64,000 bases of DNA from Lentisphaerae bacterium WC36 (GTDB lineage: Bacteria > Verrucomicrobiota > Lentisphaeria > Victivallales > SZUA-371). The position numbers and the translations under genes are program-made. Within the stretch, counting starts at the first letter, position 1; every line of letters begins with the position of its first letter. The stretch spans positions 1,736,001-1,800,000 of the forward strand of contig CP085689.1 in the NCBI GenBank assembly GCA_020683205.1. The letters are read 5' to 3'. The notes below the pieces were generated by a model. It saw only the letters and a program-made list of their open reading frames with translations. It ran no database searches and had not been told where the DNA came from. Of this stretch, positions 33,641 to 47,200 are shown piece by piece.

Positions 33641-34246
33641 ATGAATGAACAAATCACAATCGAAAAATTTTTTAATGGTAAACCCATTAACACTGGTGAT
33701 AGAAAGAAATTACCATGTTACATTTCTATTCTAGAAAAAATTGAAGCTCTCATGAATCAAGCCGTTGCCAAACACTCAAAAGTACTGTTTTTCAGAATGG
33801 ACTTAAGATTCCCCGATCAATCGTACTACACTGATCACAATAACATTTTGAGTAATTTCTTAGAAAGTTTCATGCGCAACTTAGAACGTCAAGGTCTTGA
33901 TCCTCATTACATTTGGGTAAGAGAACAAAATAGTAGCTTTAATCCACATTACCACGTTGTCATCATGCTCAATGGGCATAAAACGCAGTCGTCTTATAAG
34001 CATATAAAAATAGCAAATAAGTTATGGAGTAAGAATTTAGGTTTTGCTGATATTTATTACGGTCTTTTATACCACTGTAATGATTTCATGTCGCAAGTTA
34101 TGATTATGCGTAACAAAATAGAAACTTTTAATGATGCTTTCTACTGGGCTAGTTACTTAGCTAAAACACATAGCAAAACTAAAAGCACTAGGTATCGCAG
34201 TTTAGGTATGACTAAAATCAACAATAAAATTAAAACTATTATATAG
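33641..34246 (+). CDS. Inovirus Gp2-like replication initiator (YagK/YfjJ type)
   Basis: 201 aa. LFFRMDLRFPDQSYYTDHNNILSNFLESFMRNL, then DPHYIWVREQNSSFNPHYHVVIMLNGHKT, is the pattern of the inovirus-type Gp2/YagK-YfjJ family. HYHV supplies a His-hydrophobic-His pair, as in HUH-type nicking enzymes, and FYWASYLAKTHSK has a possible catalytic Tyr context. It probably nicks the element's origin, perhaps the hairpin just upstream. A Pif1-like helicase gene follows 12 bp later, so both likely form one operon. Confidence 0.75.
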   Translation: MNEQITIEKFFNGKPINTGDRKKLPCYISILEKIEALMNQAVAKHSKVLFFRMDLRFPDQSYYTDHNNILSNFLESFMRNLERQGLDPHYIWVREQNSSFNPHYHVVIMLNGHKTQSSYKHIKIANKLWSKNLGFADIYYGLLYHCNDFMSQVMIMRNKIETFNDAFYWASYLAKTHSKTKSTRYRSLGMTKINNKIKTII

Positions 34247-34258
34247 GGAGAAACAATT

Positions 34259-35725
34259 ATGAAAAAATTACATCTTACTGATAGAATATTTTTAGAATCA
34301 GGTGATTGCAAGAATTTGGATAAGACTCAACAATATGCTATGCTTAGAATGTTTCAAGGTCAAAATGTGTTTCTTACTGGAGAAGCTGGTTCTGGTAAGT
34401 CTCATGTCGTTAAATTATTTTTAGAAAACACTAGAAGTACTGTTACAGTTATTGCTCCTACTGGAACAGCCGCTCTTAATATTAATGGACGAACAATGAC
34501 TAATGTATTAATGAGTTCCCCAGTACACTTTAAGTTTAAGCTTGGTAATAAGTGCAAAAACTCTGATTCTATTCCTGATAAAATTTTTGTCAGTGATATT
34601 ATTTTAATCGATGAGATTTCAATGATTAGAATGTCTGAATTTGAAATTCTTGATAAGGCTCTCAGGAAATTTACAGGCAATCTTGATCAGTCTTTTGGAG
34701 GTAAGCAAATTATTGTAGTAGGTGATTTTTGTCAATTACAACCTGTTTATGAGCGTAAGTTTGAATTTGACTATTATAAACGTATTTATGGAGGAGAGTA
34801 TATTTTTCAAACTGATATGTGGCGCGATGCAAACTTTGAAAATATCTTCCTTAATACTATTCATCGTCAAAATGATAATAGCTTCAAAGAAATCCTTAAC
34901 GAATTACGTTTTGGGGTTCTAACAGAAAATAATTTTAACCTACTGGCAAAGCGTTTTAAACCTTTAGCTAGCCCAGATGATAAAACAATCTGTCTGTGTC
35001 CAACAATCAAGCAGCGAGATAAGTTTAATGCTTTGGCATTTAAAGATAATCCTGAGCCTGCTCATACTTTTAATAGAAAGATTAATGGATCTGTTCTCAA
35101 ACCTAACGTTGCACCATTAACTGTAAAATTAAAAAATAATCAAAAAGTAATGGTGAATAGAAATATCTACGATGGAGATTCATTATTATTGGTGAATGGA
35201 GATGTTGGAGTTATAAAAAATATTAATGAAGATACTAATGCTGTCGAAATTGATTTTAGTATAAGTAAAGAAGATCACAAGTTTAAGCGGATTACACTTT
35301 TTCACGCTGAATGGTCTGAGTGGGCTAATTACGCTGAGAAAATGAAAAATTCTAAATATAAGCATAAATCAGCTAAATTAGGTTCAATAAGACAAATGCC
35401 GTTAGTTTCAGCGTACGCACTAACAATTCACAAAGCTCAAGGTAAAACTTTAGAGAAAGTTCATATCACTAATGATAATTTTTTTGCACCATATCAGTTT
35501 TATACAGCATTAAGTCGAGCAAAGTGCTTAGATGATATTACCCTTGAATATCCATTAAGTCCCGATATGATTTCAGTAGATTACACTATTACAGAATTTT
35601 ATCAAAACTTACAAACTGCTAATATCACGGATTTTAACATTAAAGAGCATATCAAAATAGAGAATCATGAGATAATAGATTTGGATTTTGTCGACTTTTA
35701 TGTGAGATATTGCCTCAATCAATAA
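34259..35725 (+). CDS. Pif1-like DNA helicase
   Basis: 488 aa. Walker A VFLTGEAGSGKSHVVKLFL, motif Ia VIAPTGTAALNINGRTM, Walker B DIILIDEISMI, motif III GGKQIIVVGDFCQLQPV, and C-terminal motifs PLVSAYALTIHKAQGKTLEKVHI and FYTALSRAK define superfamily 1B helicases of the Pif1/RecD2 group. It would unwind DNA 5' to 3' during replication of the element. Ribosome binding site GGGAG; strong terminator downstream. Confidence 0.9.
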   Translation: MKKLHLTDRIFLESGDCKNLDKTQQYAMLRMFQGQNVFLTGEAGSGKSHVVKLFLENTRSTVTVIAPTGTAALNINGRTMTNVLMSSPVHFKFKLGNKCKNSDSIPDKIFVSDIILIDEISMIRMSEFEILDKALRKFTGNLDQSFGGKQIIVVGDFCQLQPVYERKFEFDYYKRIYGGEYIFQTDMWRDANFENIFLNTIHRQNDNSFKEILNELRFGVLTENNFNLLAKRFKPLASPDDKTICLCPTIKQRDKFNALAFKDNPEPAHTFNRKINGSVLKPNVAPLTVKLKNNQKVMVNRNIYDGDSLLLVNGDVGVIKNINEDTNAVEIDFSISKEDHKFKRITLFHAEWSEWANYAEKMKNSKYKHKSAKLGSIRQMPLVSAYALTIHKAQGKTLEKVHITNDNFFAPYQFYTALSRAKCLDDITLEYPLSPDMISVDYTITEFYQNLQTANITDFNIKEHIKIENHEIIDLDFVDFYVRYCLNQ

Positions 35726-36305: not shown

Positions 36306-36659
36306 TTACGAAATTACGCTTAAAATCACATTGCGAAACGCATTAATCATCCAGCCAACAACAATTAAAAAGCTGACCCCTCGATTAAAAATATTGAATG
36401 GACATACTTTGCCACGACGTTTATAATAGGCATTTCCAAAAACGATAATCGCAAAACATCCAGATAACGTCAAAATCTCTAACAAATTCATATACCACGG
36501 ATTACCCAGATAGACGTTCGTAAGGCTGGGTACCAATAATAATAACCAAAAGAACCATTGACGGCGAAATATTGGGACATCCGCATATTCTTCATACTCT
36601 TTAAATTTAAACAGCGATTCAACGATTTTGTTGCGTGAACTTTTTTGACAATTTTCCAT
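36306..36659 (-). CDS. Three-span membrane protein
   Basis: 117 aa from the ATG at 36659, preceded by GGAG. Hydrophobic segments at about residues 37-55, 58-78 and 92-112, with a positively charged loop (YYKRRGKVCP). No family recognised. It lies directly downstream (on the minus strand) of a structured RNA element and its terminator, so its expression may depend on that leader. Confidence 0.55.
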   Translation of the reverse strand: MENCQKSSRNKIVESLFKFKEYEEYADVPIFRRQWFFWLLLLVPSLTNVYLGNPWYMNLLEILTLSGCFAIIVFGNAYYKRRGKVCPFNIFNRGVSFLIVVGWMINAFRNVILSVIS

Positions 36660-36699
36660 TTTACACTCCATAAAATTAGAACTAAGTTAAATTATTATT

Positions 36700-36722: not shown

Positions 36723-36770
36723 ATTCGATTATTTCAGCTCTTTTATGAAGTGGAAGCAAAATGCAGGCAC

Positions 36771-37035
36771 AAAAAAAGAGCGTATTCAAATTCCTACACA
36801 TGTTTCAAGGTTACGCCAATAACCTACATACGAATGCAGAAAAAGAATACGCTCAAAATATCTATAAAGCCGTATTCAAAAAAAATACAGCTTGAAAAAC
36901 AGTCTTTATAGATATAGTGAACGGTATCTTTCAGTTCTTTCGTTAGCGTTTCGTATGTAAAAAATTTGGCGTATTTTGAAACAAAACGCAGAAATAGTGA
37001 AAGTAAACACTATAAATTATTCAATTGTACTAAAA
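36771..37035 (-). ncRNA. Structured RNA element, copy 1
   Basis: Read on the minus strand. A 17-bp box AGTACAATTGAAT-type (37019-37035) and TATAGT (37009-37014) mark the probable 5' end. Two stems follow: ATCTATAAAG (36860-36869) with CTTTATAGAT (36904-36913), and GAGCGTATTC (36778-36787) with GAATACGCTC (36845-36854), then seven T (36771-36777). The first stem encloses an inner hairpin AGC-GTATT/AATAC-GCT, the second AGGTT/AACCT. Copy 2 has the same plan with compensatory base changes. It may be a stand-alone RNA or the leader of the membrane protein gene. No family recognised. Confidence 0.65.
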
Positions 37036-37132
37036 ACTAATACCTAAAAAATCAAATTGCAAACCAAAAGCAATAAAAACATCAAAACTACAATTTCAGA
37101 ATAATGATAAAATTACATTAAGCAAAATGCTA

Positions 37133-37312
37133 CTAACCTTGCAACGTTAACAAATAACCATGCACTTTATTTTTCTTATTATCGTTGGAGGTGCTGATTG
37201 AAAAACATTCTAAAATAGCTCCTTCAAAGTCTCCGTTCTCATACTCCTCTTTGGAATAATATTTTACTTTATGTGGCGAATTCGTTTCCTGATCATTTTG
37301 CTTTTGGGACAT
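37133..37312 (-). CDS. Hidden small gene between the RNA copies (59 aa)
   Basis: ATG at 37312 with GAGGAAAAA upstream; stop at 37133. The product MSQKQNDQETNSPHKVKYYS... is hydrophilic, with KEEYENGDFEGAILECFSIS and a C-terminal VHGYLLTLQG. It is the only coding sequence between RNA copies 2 and 1, in the same orientation. Function unknown. Confidence 0.55.
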   Translation of the reverse strand: MSQKQNDQETNSPHKVKYYSKEEYENGDFEGAILECFSISTSNDNKKNKVHGYLLTLQG

Positions 37313-37414
37313 CGTTTTTCCTCATTAATTTGTTGACTATTATTTGATTAAATGAGAACTACTAAACTTAAAACTTCCTAAAAAAATTCTATAACGCCCC
37401 TGCATTTTAAGCAT

Positions 37415-37673
37415 AAAAAAAGAGCGTATTTAAATCTTCACATCTAAAGTAGGGCTAGACCTAATAGCCTCGCAAAAAATGCAAAAACAAAAATACGCTC
37501 AAAATATCTATAACAGCCGTATTCAAAAATACTGCTGTTGAATAAACACGGTTATAGATACAATGAACGCCCTTAAATATTTGTTTACGTTTTTTTGCTA
37601 AAAATTTGGTCTATTTTATTGTAAAACGTCAAAATACAAAGGGTATCACTATACTAATTCAATTGTACTAAAA
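37415..37673 (-). ncRNA. Structured RNA element, copy 2
   Basis: Same plan as copy 1, on the minus strand: the 17-bp box at 37657-37673, TATAGT at 37648-37653, stem ATCTATAAC (37506-37514) with GTTATAGAT (37551-37559), terminator stem GAGCGTATTT (37422-37431) with AAATACGCTC (37491-37500), and seven T (37415-37421). In both main stems a base pair differs from copy 1 and the partner base differs too, which supports a selected RNA structure. The next gene downstream is the 59-aa ORF. Confidence 0.65.
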
Positions 37674-43608: not shown

Positions 43609-43902
43609 CTACAAAGCAACTTGGTATTGTTCAATTGATGCTAATTCTCTAGCAATTTGCTTTTGAGTCTCTCTTACATCGTATTCGTCTTGTAAGCCTA
43701 GCCAAAAATTGGTGCTAGTGCCAAAGAATTTGCTCAAACGCAGTGCTGTGTCGGCAGTGATACGACGTTTGCCTTTGACAATTTCATTGATACGGTGTGC
43801 AGGGACTCTTAGGCCAATTGCTAACTTGTTTTGGCTTAAGTTCATCGGCTTCAAAAATTCTTCTAAAAGAATCTCGCCTGGGTGAATATTTAATGGTTCC
43901 AT
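43609..43902 (-). CDS. higA: HigA-type antitoxin
   Basis: 97 aa. NIHPGEILLEEFLKPMNLSQNKLAIGLRVPAHRINEIVKGKRRITADTALRLSKFFGTSTNFWLGLQ is the classic HigA/VapI XRE-type antitoxin. It would bind HigB and repress the pair. It lies 12 bp after higB, in the usual toxin-first order, convergent with the ATPase gene (stop codons adjacent). Confidence 0.9.
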   Translation of the reverse strand: MEPLNIHPGEILLEEFLKPMNLSQNKLAIGLRVPAHRINEIVKGKRRITADTALRLSKFFGTSTNFWLGLQDEYDVRETQKQIARELASIEQYQVAL

Positions 43903-43914
43903 TTTAGTACTCCT

Positions 43915-44193
43915 TTAATGGTAATCAACGATTTCTACGTTATAAACATGGCCGTCATCAAAAGTAAAACAGATACGCCACTGCTTATTTATTCGAATGC
44001 TGTACTGACCTTGACGAGTGCCTTTTAAAGCCTCAAGATGATTACTTGGAGGAATCAATAAATCCTCAATAATTTCTGCGTGCGAAAGCATAAATAACTT
44101 ACGTAATGCTTGACGCTCAAAGGCTTTGAAATGGCGACTACGCCCTTTATTGAACAGTTCAGCGGTCTTTTTACACTTAAAATTTTTAATCAT
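43915..44193 (-). CDS. higB: HigB-type toxin
   Basis: 92 aa. MIKNFKCKKTAELFNKGRSRHFKAFERQALRKL ... SIRINKQWRICFTFDDGHVYNVEIVDYH is the HigB/RelE-like plasmid maintenance toxin, an mRNA interferase acting at the ribosome. The conserved WRICF and VEIVDYH end are present. A good promoter lies upstream on the minus strand: TTGACA, 17 bp, TAAAGT, with GTTATAAAG repeated twice as a possible operator (about 44,205-44,250). Confidence 0.9.
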   Translation of the reverse strand: MIKNFKCKKTAELFNKGRSRHFKAFERQALRKLFMLSHAEIIEDLLIPPSNHLEALKGTRQGQYSIRINKQWRICFTFDDGHVYNVEIVDYH

Positions 44194-44284: not shown

Positions 44285-47200
44285 ATGAAAAATCAAAATA
44301 AATGTAATACTCAAATTTTGAAAAATATTATTGCTGTGAACCTGGATGTTAGAATCTGGTCGGCACGCAAAAAATTGCACGAAAATGACTTTGAACATTC
44401 ACAGTTGCCACCTGAAAGTTTGGCTTCATTGGGTCATAAACGAGTATGTGGTGCGACTTGTTGTTAATTGAAAAGATTAACTATAGCAATTTATTTGCTA
44501 TAAACTAATAATCTGAGAAGATGGAATGATGGAGTAACGCCCTGAAACGTCTCCTTTAATACTCCGATATGCGTTCAGTTATGTTATCAACTGAAGGTGT
44601 AAAGCTCGGTGAAGTCGGCTGAGAAGATACCCTAACGAGTAATGTCGAGGAATAGCGAACCAGAGGTGGTCGAGTATCTGATAGGCCGGAAGTCTATAAA
44701 TTATCTATGGTGAGAATGTCCATTGAGGACTGACGAACTTCTGAATGTACAGGTCTAAACTTTTAAAATACAGAAATGTATTTATCACAATTGTGATGTA
44801 AGTGTGGTTGAGTAGGATTCGCATATACGAAAATCCATGTATTGTTACAGGCAATATCAAGCTTACAGGTTTATAGGAAGCATCTAAGGATAAATGCATA
44901 GATAAGATTATTGGAACAAGGAAAGGTCAGAACGTGGAGTGATAACACACTGAGAAGCGGAATGCTATATAAAACCATTAGGTATTAAAAGCAATTTGTC
45001 TGACTGAGAGCGGAGGCATGAGCTATGAATTTGTTGTAATGGCAAAGGAGCAACAGCCTCTAGTCAATTATAACTATAATCAAAAACACATATCCATTCG
45101 TAGGTTTCGGGTATGACTAAGAGAGGTCAAATCAATTCAATAGAAAATGAGGAGACCGACTATGAGTAAAACAAAAGAAAACTTAAAGAGGCAAAATTTG
45201 CGAAATAACGAATACTATAATTTTCAAGAAACTTTTGATAAACTGTATGAACAAAGTTACAATGGTAAAAAATTCCAAAATTTATTAAAATTTATAATTC
45301 GGGAAGAAAACATATTGTTAGCCTACAGAAATATTAAAAGAAACAAAGGGAGTCAAACGCAAGGAGTCGATTCGAAAGACATCAGATTTCTTGCAAATAT
45401 GACTACGAATGAATTAGTATCATTTATACGCAAAAAATTGCAAAATTATTTTCCTAAAAAAGTTAGACGTGTAGAAATTCCTAAAGCAAATGGAAAAACT
45501 AGGCCTTTAGGGATTCCAACAATAGAAGATAGATTAATACAACAATGTATTATGCAGGTATTAGATCCTATTTGCGAAGCCAAATTCTATAAGCATAGCT
45601 ATGGTTTTAGACCTTTACGATCTGCAAAACATGCAATTGCAAGATGTAACTTTAATATAAATAGAACAAAGCTACACTATGTAGTAGATGTTGATATTAA
45701 AGGATTTTTCGATAATATAGACCATGCAAAACTATTAAAACAATTATGGGCATTGGGAATACAAGATAAATCTTTATTGAAGGTAATATCTAAAATGCTT
45801 AAGGCAGAAATTGCTGGGGTGGGAGTTCCTACAAAAGGGACTCCACAGGGCGGTATTTTATCACCTTTGTTAGCAAATGTAGCTTTAAATGAATTTGATT
45901 GGTGGATAGCGAGTCAATGGGATCAATATAAAAGTCATCATCAATATACAGGAAGCCATAAATTTCGAGCCTTAAAAACAACAAGGCTCAAAGAAATGCA
46001 TATTGTACGCTATGCTGATGACTTTAAAATCTTCTGTAGAAACTATACCGATGCAAAAAAGATTTTCACTGCGGTCAAAAACTGGCTTGAAACGCGATTG
46101 AAGCTAGAAATCAGTCCAGAAAAATCTAGAATAACGAATTTAAAAAAGAATTATTCAGAATTTCTTGGAATAAAGATTAAAGTGAAAAAAAAAGGAAAAA
46201 GAGTCTTAAAAGGACAGTTTGAAGATAAATATGTGACAGATTCACATATTGCAGATAAAGCAAAGAAAAGAATATTATTACAAGTTAAAGTCTTTATTAA
46301 AAGAATCCAACGCTCTACAGGTATAGAGGTACTTATAAATATTGATAAGTATAATGCCTATGTGATTGGAGTTCATAATTACTACAACATCGCAACATGT
46401 TGTAATTTAGACTTTCACAAAATAGCCTTTCTTAGTCTTCGGGCACGGGAAAACAGACTTACTTTAAGAAGAAGAAAGCACGACGAAAAATTGCCACGAT
46501 ATATACAGGACAGATATGGTAAATCAAAATGCCTACGGTTTATATATAATAAACCGTTCCTACCTGTAAGCTATGTACAATTTAAGATGCAGCCCTCATA
46601 TAGTGGCTGGTCCCCTTATGTTGAAAATGACAGGAAAAATTTTCATAGCAATCAAAAATCCGTTAGTTCAATTTTTATACAAGAACTTCTTAAGCGTCCA
46701 ACGCCAAGGAAAAGTGTAGAATTTAATGATAATCGGATTGCTTTATTCGTAGCACAGTATGGAAAATGTGCCATTACTGGTGAAAAATTAGATATTGATG
46801 ATATTCACTGTCACCATAAAAAACCGATAAAACACGGTGGAGGCGATGAATATAGGAATCTCATAATTATACATGAGAAAGTTCATAAACTGATTCATGC
46901 CAGTAAAACTAACACAATCCAAAAGATTATACGTCAACTCAATCTTAGTGCAAAAATGATTGAGAAGCTGAATTCTTTGAGAATACAAGCTCAACAAGTG
47001 CCTATACTTTAAGAACCTATATGTTTTACGAGATATGATTGTATTGAGTAGTTATAAATGATGGAACGCCGTGTGCGGTGAAAGTCGCACGCACGGTGTG
47101 GATGGAGGGAAAACTTGGAGATAACTTCAAAGGGTTACCTATCCATATATCCAAATAAATTGAAAATCTTCAGTACTCTTAAATCACGGGCTGTGAAATT

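Follow-up and report, generated by a model that had tools for sequence, protein, structure and literature searches.

A phylum-wide family of structured RNAs with two mutually exclusive predicted folds, probably leaders of diverse genes

Attenuators of the pT181/pIP501 type carry hairpins with complementary loops, a pre-emptor strand competes with the terminator, and the outcome is antisense-controlled. More broadly, transcription attenuators form a diverse and fast-evolving class (PMC2965389). Leaders that work by terminator and antiterminator, i.e., riboswitches, trp-type leaders, and protein-controlled leaders (PMC2965389), have in common with the RNAs described here the 5′ leader position, an intrinsic terminator, and a gene directly behind it; they are also alike in that the alternative pairing employs one strand of the terminator. 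By analogy, our leader RNA would work like these known transcription attenuators, and we consider it likely that each of its copies acts as a bistable attenuator of transcription, placed in the 5′ leader ahead of its gene.

The window, i.e., the whole 64,000-nt stretch of the Lentisphaerae bacterium WC36 genome analyzed here, holds two copies of this RNA, RNA A and RNA B, with the following features.

36306-36659, minus strand: gene after RNA A, a 117-aa predicted membrane protein, with Shine-Dalgarno site GGAG and its start 112 nt past the T run
36771-37014, minus strand: RNA A, predicted bistable leader RNA (stems, T7, covariance-model match)
36771-36854, minus strand: terminator of RNA A, stem P5 of GAGCGTATTC (36854-36845) with GAATACGCTC (36787-36778), then T7 (36777-36771)
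36801-36834, minus strand: 3′ arms of RNA A, namely c′, b′ (TTGGCG), and a′, with hairpin P5c (36824-36820 with 36813-36809; its loop is b′)
36950-36983, minus strand: 5′ arms of RNA A, namely a, b (CGCCAA), and c, complementary to its own 3′ arms, with covariation
37019-37035, minus strand: 17-bp box 5′ of RNA A (TTTTAGTACAATTGAAT), identical before RNA B, containing TACAAT
37133-37312, minus strand: 59-aa ORF after RNA B, with Shine-Dalgarno site GAGG and its start 103 nt past the T run
37415-37653, minus strand: RNA B, a diverged leader RNA copy with terminator and T7 (37421-37415)
37657-37673, minus strand: 17-bp box 5′ of RNA B (TTTTAGTACAATTGAAT), with the same letters as the box of RNA A

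RNA A and RNA B are 72-75% identical, both open with TATAGTG and close with GCTC-T7, and each contains two main stems with inner hairpins, then a stem and T7. Compared with dinucleotide shuffles, folding energy was lower for both (z of -6.8 for RNA A and -4.8 for RNA B), and 0 of 200 shuffles equaled them. The TACAAT within the box before RNA A is a possible -10 element of a putative promoter. A sequence-only reading of this DNA had described two diverged minus-strand copies of a structured RNA with covarying stems, had taken the main-stem differences between them as compensatory, and had placed each copy upstream of a small minus-strand gene. It was borne out: the two copies are real, their stems covary across homologues, and a same-strand ORF with a Shine-Dalgarno site lies 103-112 nt downstream of each. 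The gene after RNA A would encode 121 aa if read from an upstream ATG at 36671. We also observed AAAAGAGC, or a variant of it, about 30 nt past the terminator in many copies of this genome (window 36740-36778 and its sisters); it is complementary to the terminator 3′ strand GCTCTTTT.

The same reading had proposed a fold of local stems plus terminator. This fold is real, but a second one exists. For most copies, energy minimization instead yields a rod that joins the 5′ half of the RNA to its 3′ half, segments a, b, and c pairing with c′, b′, and a′. The two folds share a strand: in the sequences inspected, helix P4 uses as its 3′ strand the same bases that serve terminator stem P5 as its 5′ strand. 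When the 3′ half was folded alone, the terminator formed in 64/64 homologues, and the full-length minimum-energy fold was without it in 58/64, compared with 64 of 320 folds (20%) in which the terminator was lost when the 5′ half had been shuffled. The full-length fold was lower by a median of 11.9 kcal/mol among these 64 homologues, which were picked with an arm-containing model and are thus a non-independent sample whose rod energies are partly selected for. The rod was already the best fold before the 3′ strand of the terminator had been made in 61/64 homologues, so that energy by itself would make read-through the default. In RNA B, the energy gap between the folds is small (-2.4 kcal/mol), and arm a pairs poorly. 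In the predicted structures, then, the conserved folds exclude each other.

Covariation was assessed in a MAFFT alignment of 19 sequences. The arms scored 0.637, with 126 double changes, compared with at most 0.171 for slid versions, and the local helices P2, P3, and P5c scored 0.336, against a control of at most 0.126. P5c is a hairpin with b′ as its loop, and its inner 3′ bases pair either with their own 5′ strand or with arm b, both of which covary (columns 207-215 and 35-215). Among 63 distinct rows of a larger alignment, made with model R2 (below) and fitted to the arms, the arms showed 588 double changes; helices P2 and P5c, which are absent from that model, showed 103 in the 63 rows, and P5c was paired in 94.5% of cells. 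Both folds covary; if our reading is right, this is an unusually clear case of mutually exclusive folds that can each be seen in covariation.

A homology search with covariance models, which the earlier reading had suggested as a check, uncovered a large family across the phylum. Within the order, the matches to model R1, built on P4-P5, were weak, yet the whole layout was common to them, namely CTTTC..ACGTTT, a, AAA-b-UUU, c, AAACG..GAAAG, P4, TTCTTTC, c′, GG[b′]CC, a′, and the terminator. Model R2, made from 19 sequences with the arms alone as its structure, had matches with E down to 1e-32 within the order, where 91 of 137 genomes and 36 of 48 genera were positive; in a draw of 387 genomes from the phylum, 119 were positive, representing 62 of 197 genera. 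It gave no match under E = 0.3 in 6 genomes from elsewhere and none at E = 0.001 in 146 genomes of another phylum. Covariance models were needed because blastn in 60 relatives returned one 47-nt match and missed nearly the whole family. Exact 18-base pattern scans of genome and viral collections yielded only chance matches in coding sequence, a degenerate P2/P3 pattern had no match in viral contigs, and a DNA search of phage and plasmid collections found no match.

Across the family, the RNA ends in a run of at least five T in 48 of 61 loci (background 5%). A same-strand gene, called from a Shine-Dalgarno site, a start codon, and an ORF of at least 60 aa rather than from annotations, lies within 200 nt downstream at 41 of 54 loci, compared with 3 of 54 for the upstream mirror-image control. 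The sequence-only reading had left open whether the copies are leaders/attenuators or independent small RNAs; this placement, with the mutual exclusion of terminator and rod, supports the former well and weakens the latter. An independent small RNA would have its own promoter and terminator, its folds would bind a partner RNA or protein, and its neighbors would use promoters of their own. There is indeed an apparent -10-like box of its own within 50 nt upstream (30 of 61 homologues vs. 18.7 expected, a modest enrichment), the terminator is conserved, 13 of 54 loci lack a gene as defined above inside 200 nt, and 44 first downstream proteins have no family in common. Nevertheless, we regard an independent small RNA as improbable, since the gene placement is strongly one-sided and a conserved second fold that removes the terminator makes little sense if the RNA must end there. 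Moreover, at several loci (L095, L113, L077, L119, and L112), the start codon comes 0-34 nt past the T run, which leaves no room for a separate promoter; a -10-like box was present below the terminator in 6 of 61 homologues.

The downstream proteins matched Pfam families as different as double zinc ribbons, PEP-CTERM, GtrA, glycosyltransferases, Sel1 and ankyrin repeats, a PAS sensor, an EcoRI-type methylase, and an SNF2 helicase. Hence the earlier idea that each RNA serves a small effector suits this genome but not the phylum, where the downstream genes are highly diverse. A general link to phage defense was considered and dropped, PADLOC giving isolated matches only among the downstream genes. 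In four relatives (L107, L111, L127, and L049), the same-strand gene just 5′ of the RNA resembles, by eye, a Ser/Thr protein kinase.

As we picture the attenuator, transcription would begin just 5′ of the RNA, as the -10-like box suggests. In the terminating state (P2, P3, P5c, and P5), hairpin P2/P3 would form in the 5′ part and present b in its loop, while terminator P5 and P5c, the latter with b′ as its loop, would form in the 3′ part, so that transcription would stop at the T run. For read-through (a, b, c, and P4), arms a, b, and c would pair with c′, b′, and a′, P4 would capture the 5′ strand of the terminator, and RNA polymerase, with no terminator in its way, would enter the gene. The exchange probably starts where the loops of b and b′ meet. 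Switching would take place during transcription and would presumably be set by a cue, for which a protein, a small molecule, an antisense RNA, and polymerase speed are candidates. Since the fold computed as the ground state is the rod, an RNA left to itself would tend toward read-through; formation of the rod could be delayed by the 5′ hairpin (median -15 kcal/mol), and a cue that stabilizes this hairpin would turn the gene off. Promoter, termination, and read-through at these leaders are all putative, being read from the sequence.

The genome, a single contig of 3.66 Mb, contains 15 copies, the same set being returned by blastn and by model R1. Ten of them sit in five A/B modules, with the order RNA B, 59-aa ORF, RNA A, and variable ORF; the other five are solitary. 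Each of the 15 is followed by a small same-strand ORF, a Shine-Dalgarno site was seen at all distinct copies except one, and at most copies the start codon lies 100-120 nt past the terminator despite unrelated proteins. The five modules are near-identical between RNA B and the start codon after RNA A, the 59-aa ORF being DNA-identical between the window module and its four sister modules. The ORF after RNA A, in contrast, is swapped exactly at the start codon and encodes 121, 211, or 176 aa. Because the ORFs are replaced at the start codon, the leader and start region appear to act as a unit with exchangeable genes behind it. Within the modules, the RNA A arms have changed jointly on both sides (the window, L014, and L017 vs. 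L012 and L015), and the RNA B arms less so.

Such concerted change of both arms between near-identical modules, together with the dispersal of the copies, partly in modules resembling mobile elements, could also be expected of an element acting at the DNA level, either a quasi-palindrome whose arms are kept complementary by gene conversion or template switching, or a recombination site that folds, in each case lacking a function as RNA. This we judge very improbable, since the short-range helices P2, P3, and P5c covary as well, the T run is conserved, the orientation to the downstream gene is fixed, and the flanks of most solitary copies have no common ends.

The arm sequences are highly variable between copies and complementary inside each copy. 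Cognate arm duplexes had energies of -18 to -44 kcal/mol, non-cognate (swapped) ones of -7 to -25 kcal/mol, and the cognate partner was the best in 9 of 9 distinct copies tested. These properties bear on a variant of the attenuator that differs from our preferred explanation solely in its cue, i.e., one set in trans by a pT181-like antisense RNA, in which a loop-complementary RNA would block arm pairing and force termination, and copy-specific arms would reflect orthogonality between leaders. The hairpins with complementary loops, the fast and joint divergence of the arms between near-identical modules, and the strong preference of cognate arms for each other are all in keeping with it. However, blastn of the genome with either RNA returned the 15 full copies only and no separate antisense locus, and fast neutral drift under pairing would also yield diverse arms; we therefore think this variant unlikely.

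Several features were noted around the modules. In L014, an extra 170 bp, possibly a small inserted element, separates RNA A from its gene compared with the near-identical sister modules, and a long masked stretch (N) adjoins the modules in both L014 and L017, some 0.3-4 kb 5′ of them. Beside the RNA module of the window (33641-35725), a YagK_YfjJ_C replication-type protein precedes a PIF1-like helicase, and similar proteins also occur near the modules in L014, L015, and L017. A HigB/HigA-type toxin-antitoxin pair occupies window positions 43609-44193 on the minus strand, and a group II intron with a reverse transcriptase occupies 44451-47148; in L015, the intron-flanking genes are joined without the intron, an apparent empty site. 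That intron, alternatively placed at 44500-47148 and about 7 kb away, holds the nearest reverse transcriptase, so the earlier exclusion of a typical retron, for want of an adjacent reverse transcriptase, stands; inspection of translations likewise revealed no retron reverse transcriptase in ORFs adjoining the window copies or the other loci of this genome.

Beyond the attenuator itself, we suggest, with somewhat less than even confidence, that these RNAs constitute a new class of signal-sensing leader RNA, common across the phylum, that refolds over almost its whole length and, through fast-evolving, copy-specific arms, sets the expression of accessory, envelope, and mobile-element genes as one broad regulon that answers to a single shared cue. 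Roughly one in three sampled genomes of the phylum carries the structured RNA, and a genome can contain as many as 15 copies. If our reading is right, it would be a general gene-control device of little-studied bacteria, and many unannotated genes would be joined as one candidate regulon.

How, then, does this RNA relate to those already described? The structured RNA family is apparently absent from Rfam 15, which gave no gathering-score match to it either in the window or in any relative scanned and, for the window region, no match over RNA A or RNA B up to E = 5; nor did we find a description of the leader RNA in the open-license papers searched. The closest Rfam resemblance is to Pedo-repair RNA (RF01715; Weinberg 2010, PMC2864571), which relative L041 matches over its full length at 26.7 bits and with similar long-range helix nesting; kinship was rejected, this best score being far under the gathering score of 150 and the best RF01715 matches in the order falling elsewhere than those of R2. 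T-box riboswitches (reviewed in PMC7583486) are alike in having a UGGN segment, a terminator/antiterminator region, and a facing GCCA-like segment; unlike theirs, the downstream genes here are not aminoacylation or amino-acid genes. There was no Rfam T-box match up to E = 2-5, and T-box-like sensing of the tRNA end was dropped, as the UGG is not invariant, a quarter of 63 rows differing at its positions. No invariant unpaired core of the riboswitch type stands out in the phylum-wide consensus. The likeness to pT181/pIP501 lies in the hairpins with complementary loops and the pre-emptor strand, and the difference is that here the partner lies within the same RNA. With attenuators in general, the family shares a terminator 5′ of a same-strand gene (T run in 48/61; gene in 41/54 vs. 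3/54) and a conserved fold that excludes it (covariation; 58/64 vs. 20% when shuffled). Unlike known attenuator leaders, it has no recognizable leader peptide or known aptamer and no common pathway among its genes; and, unlike in known terminator/antiterminator leaders, its read-through fold spans nearly the whole molecule through three fast-evolving arms.
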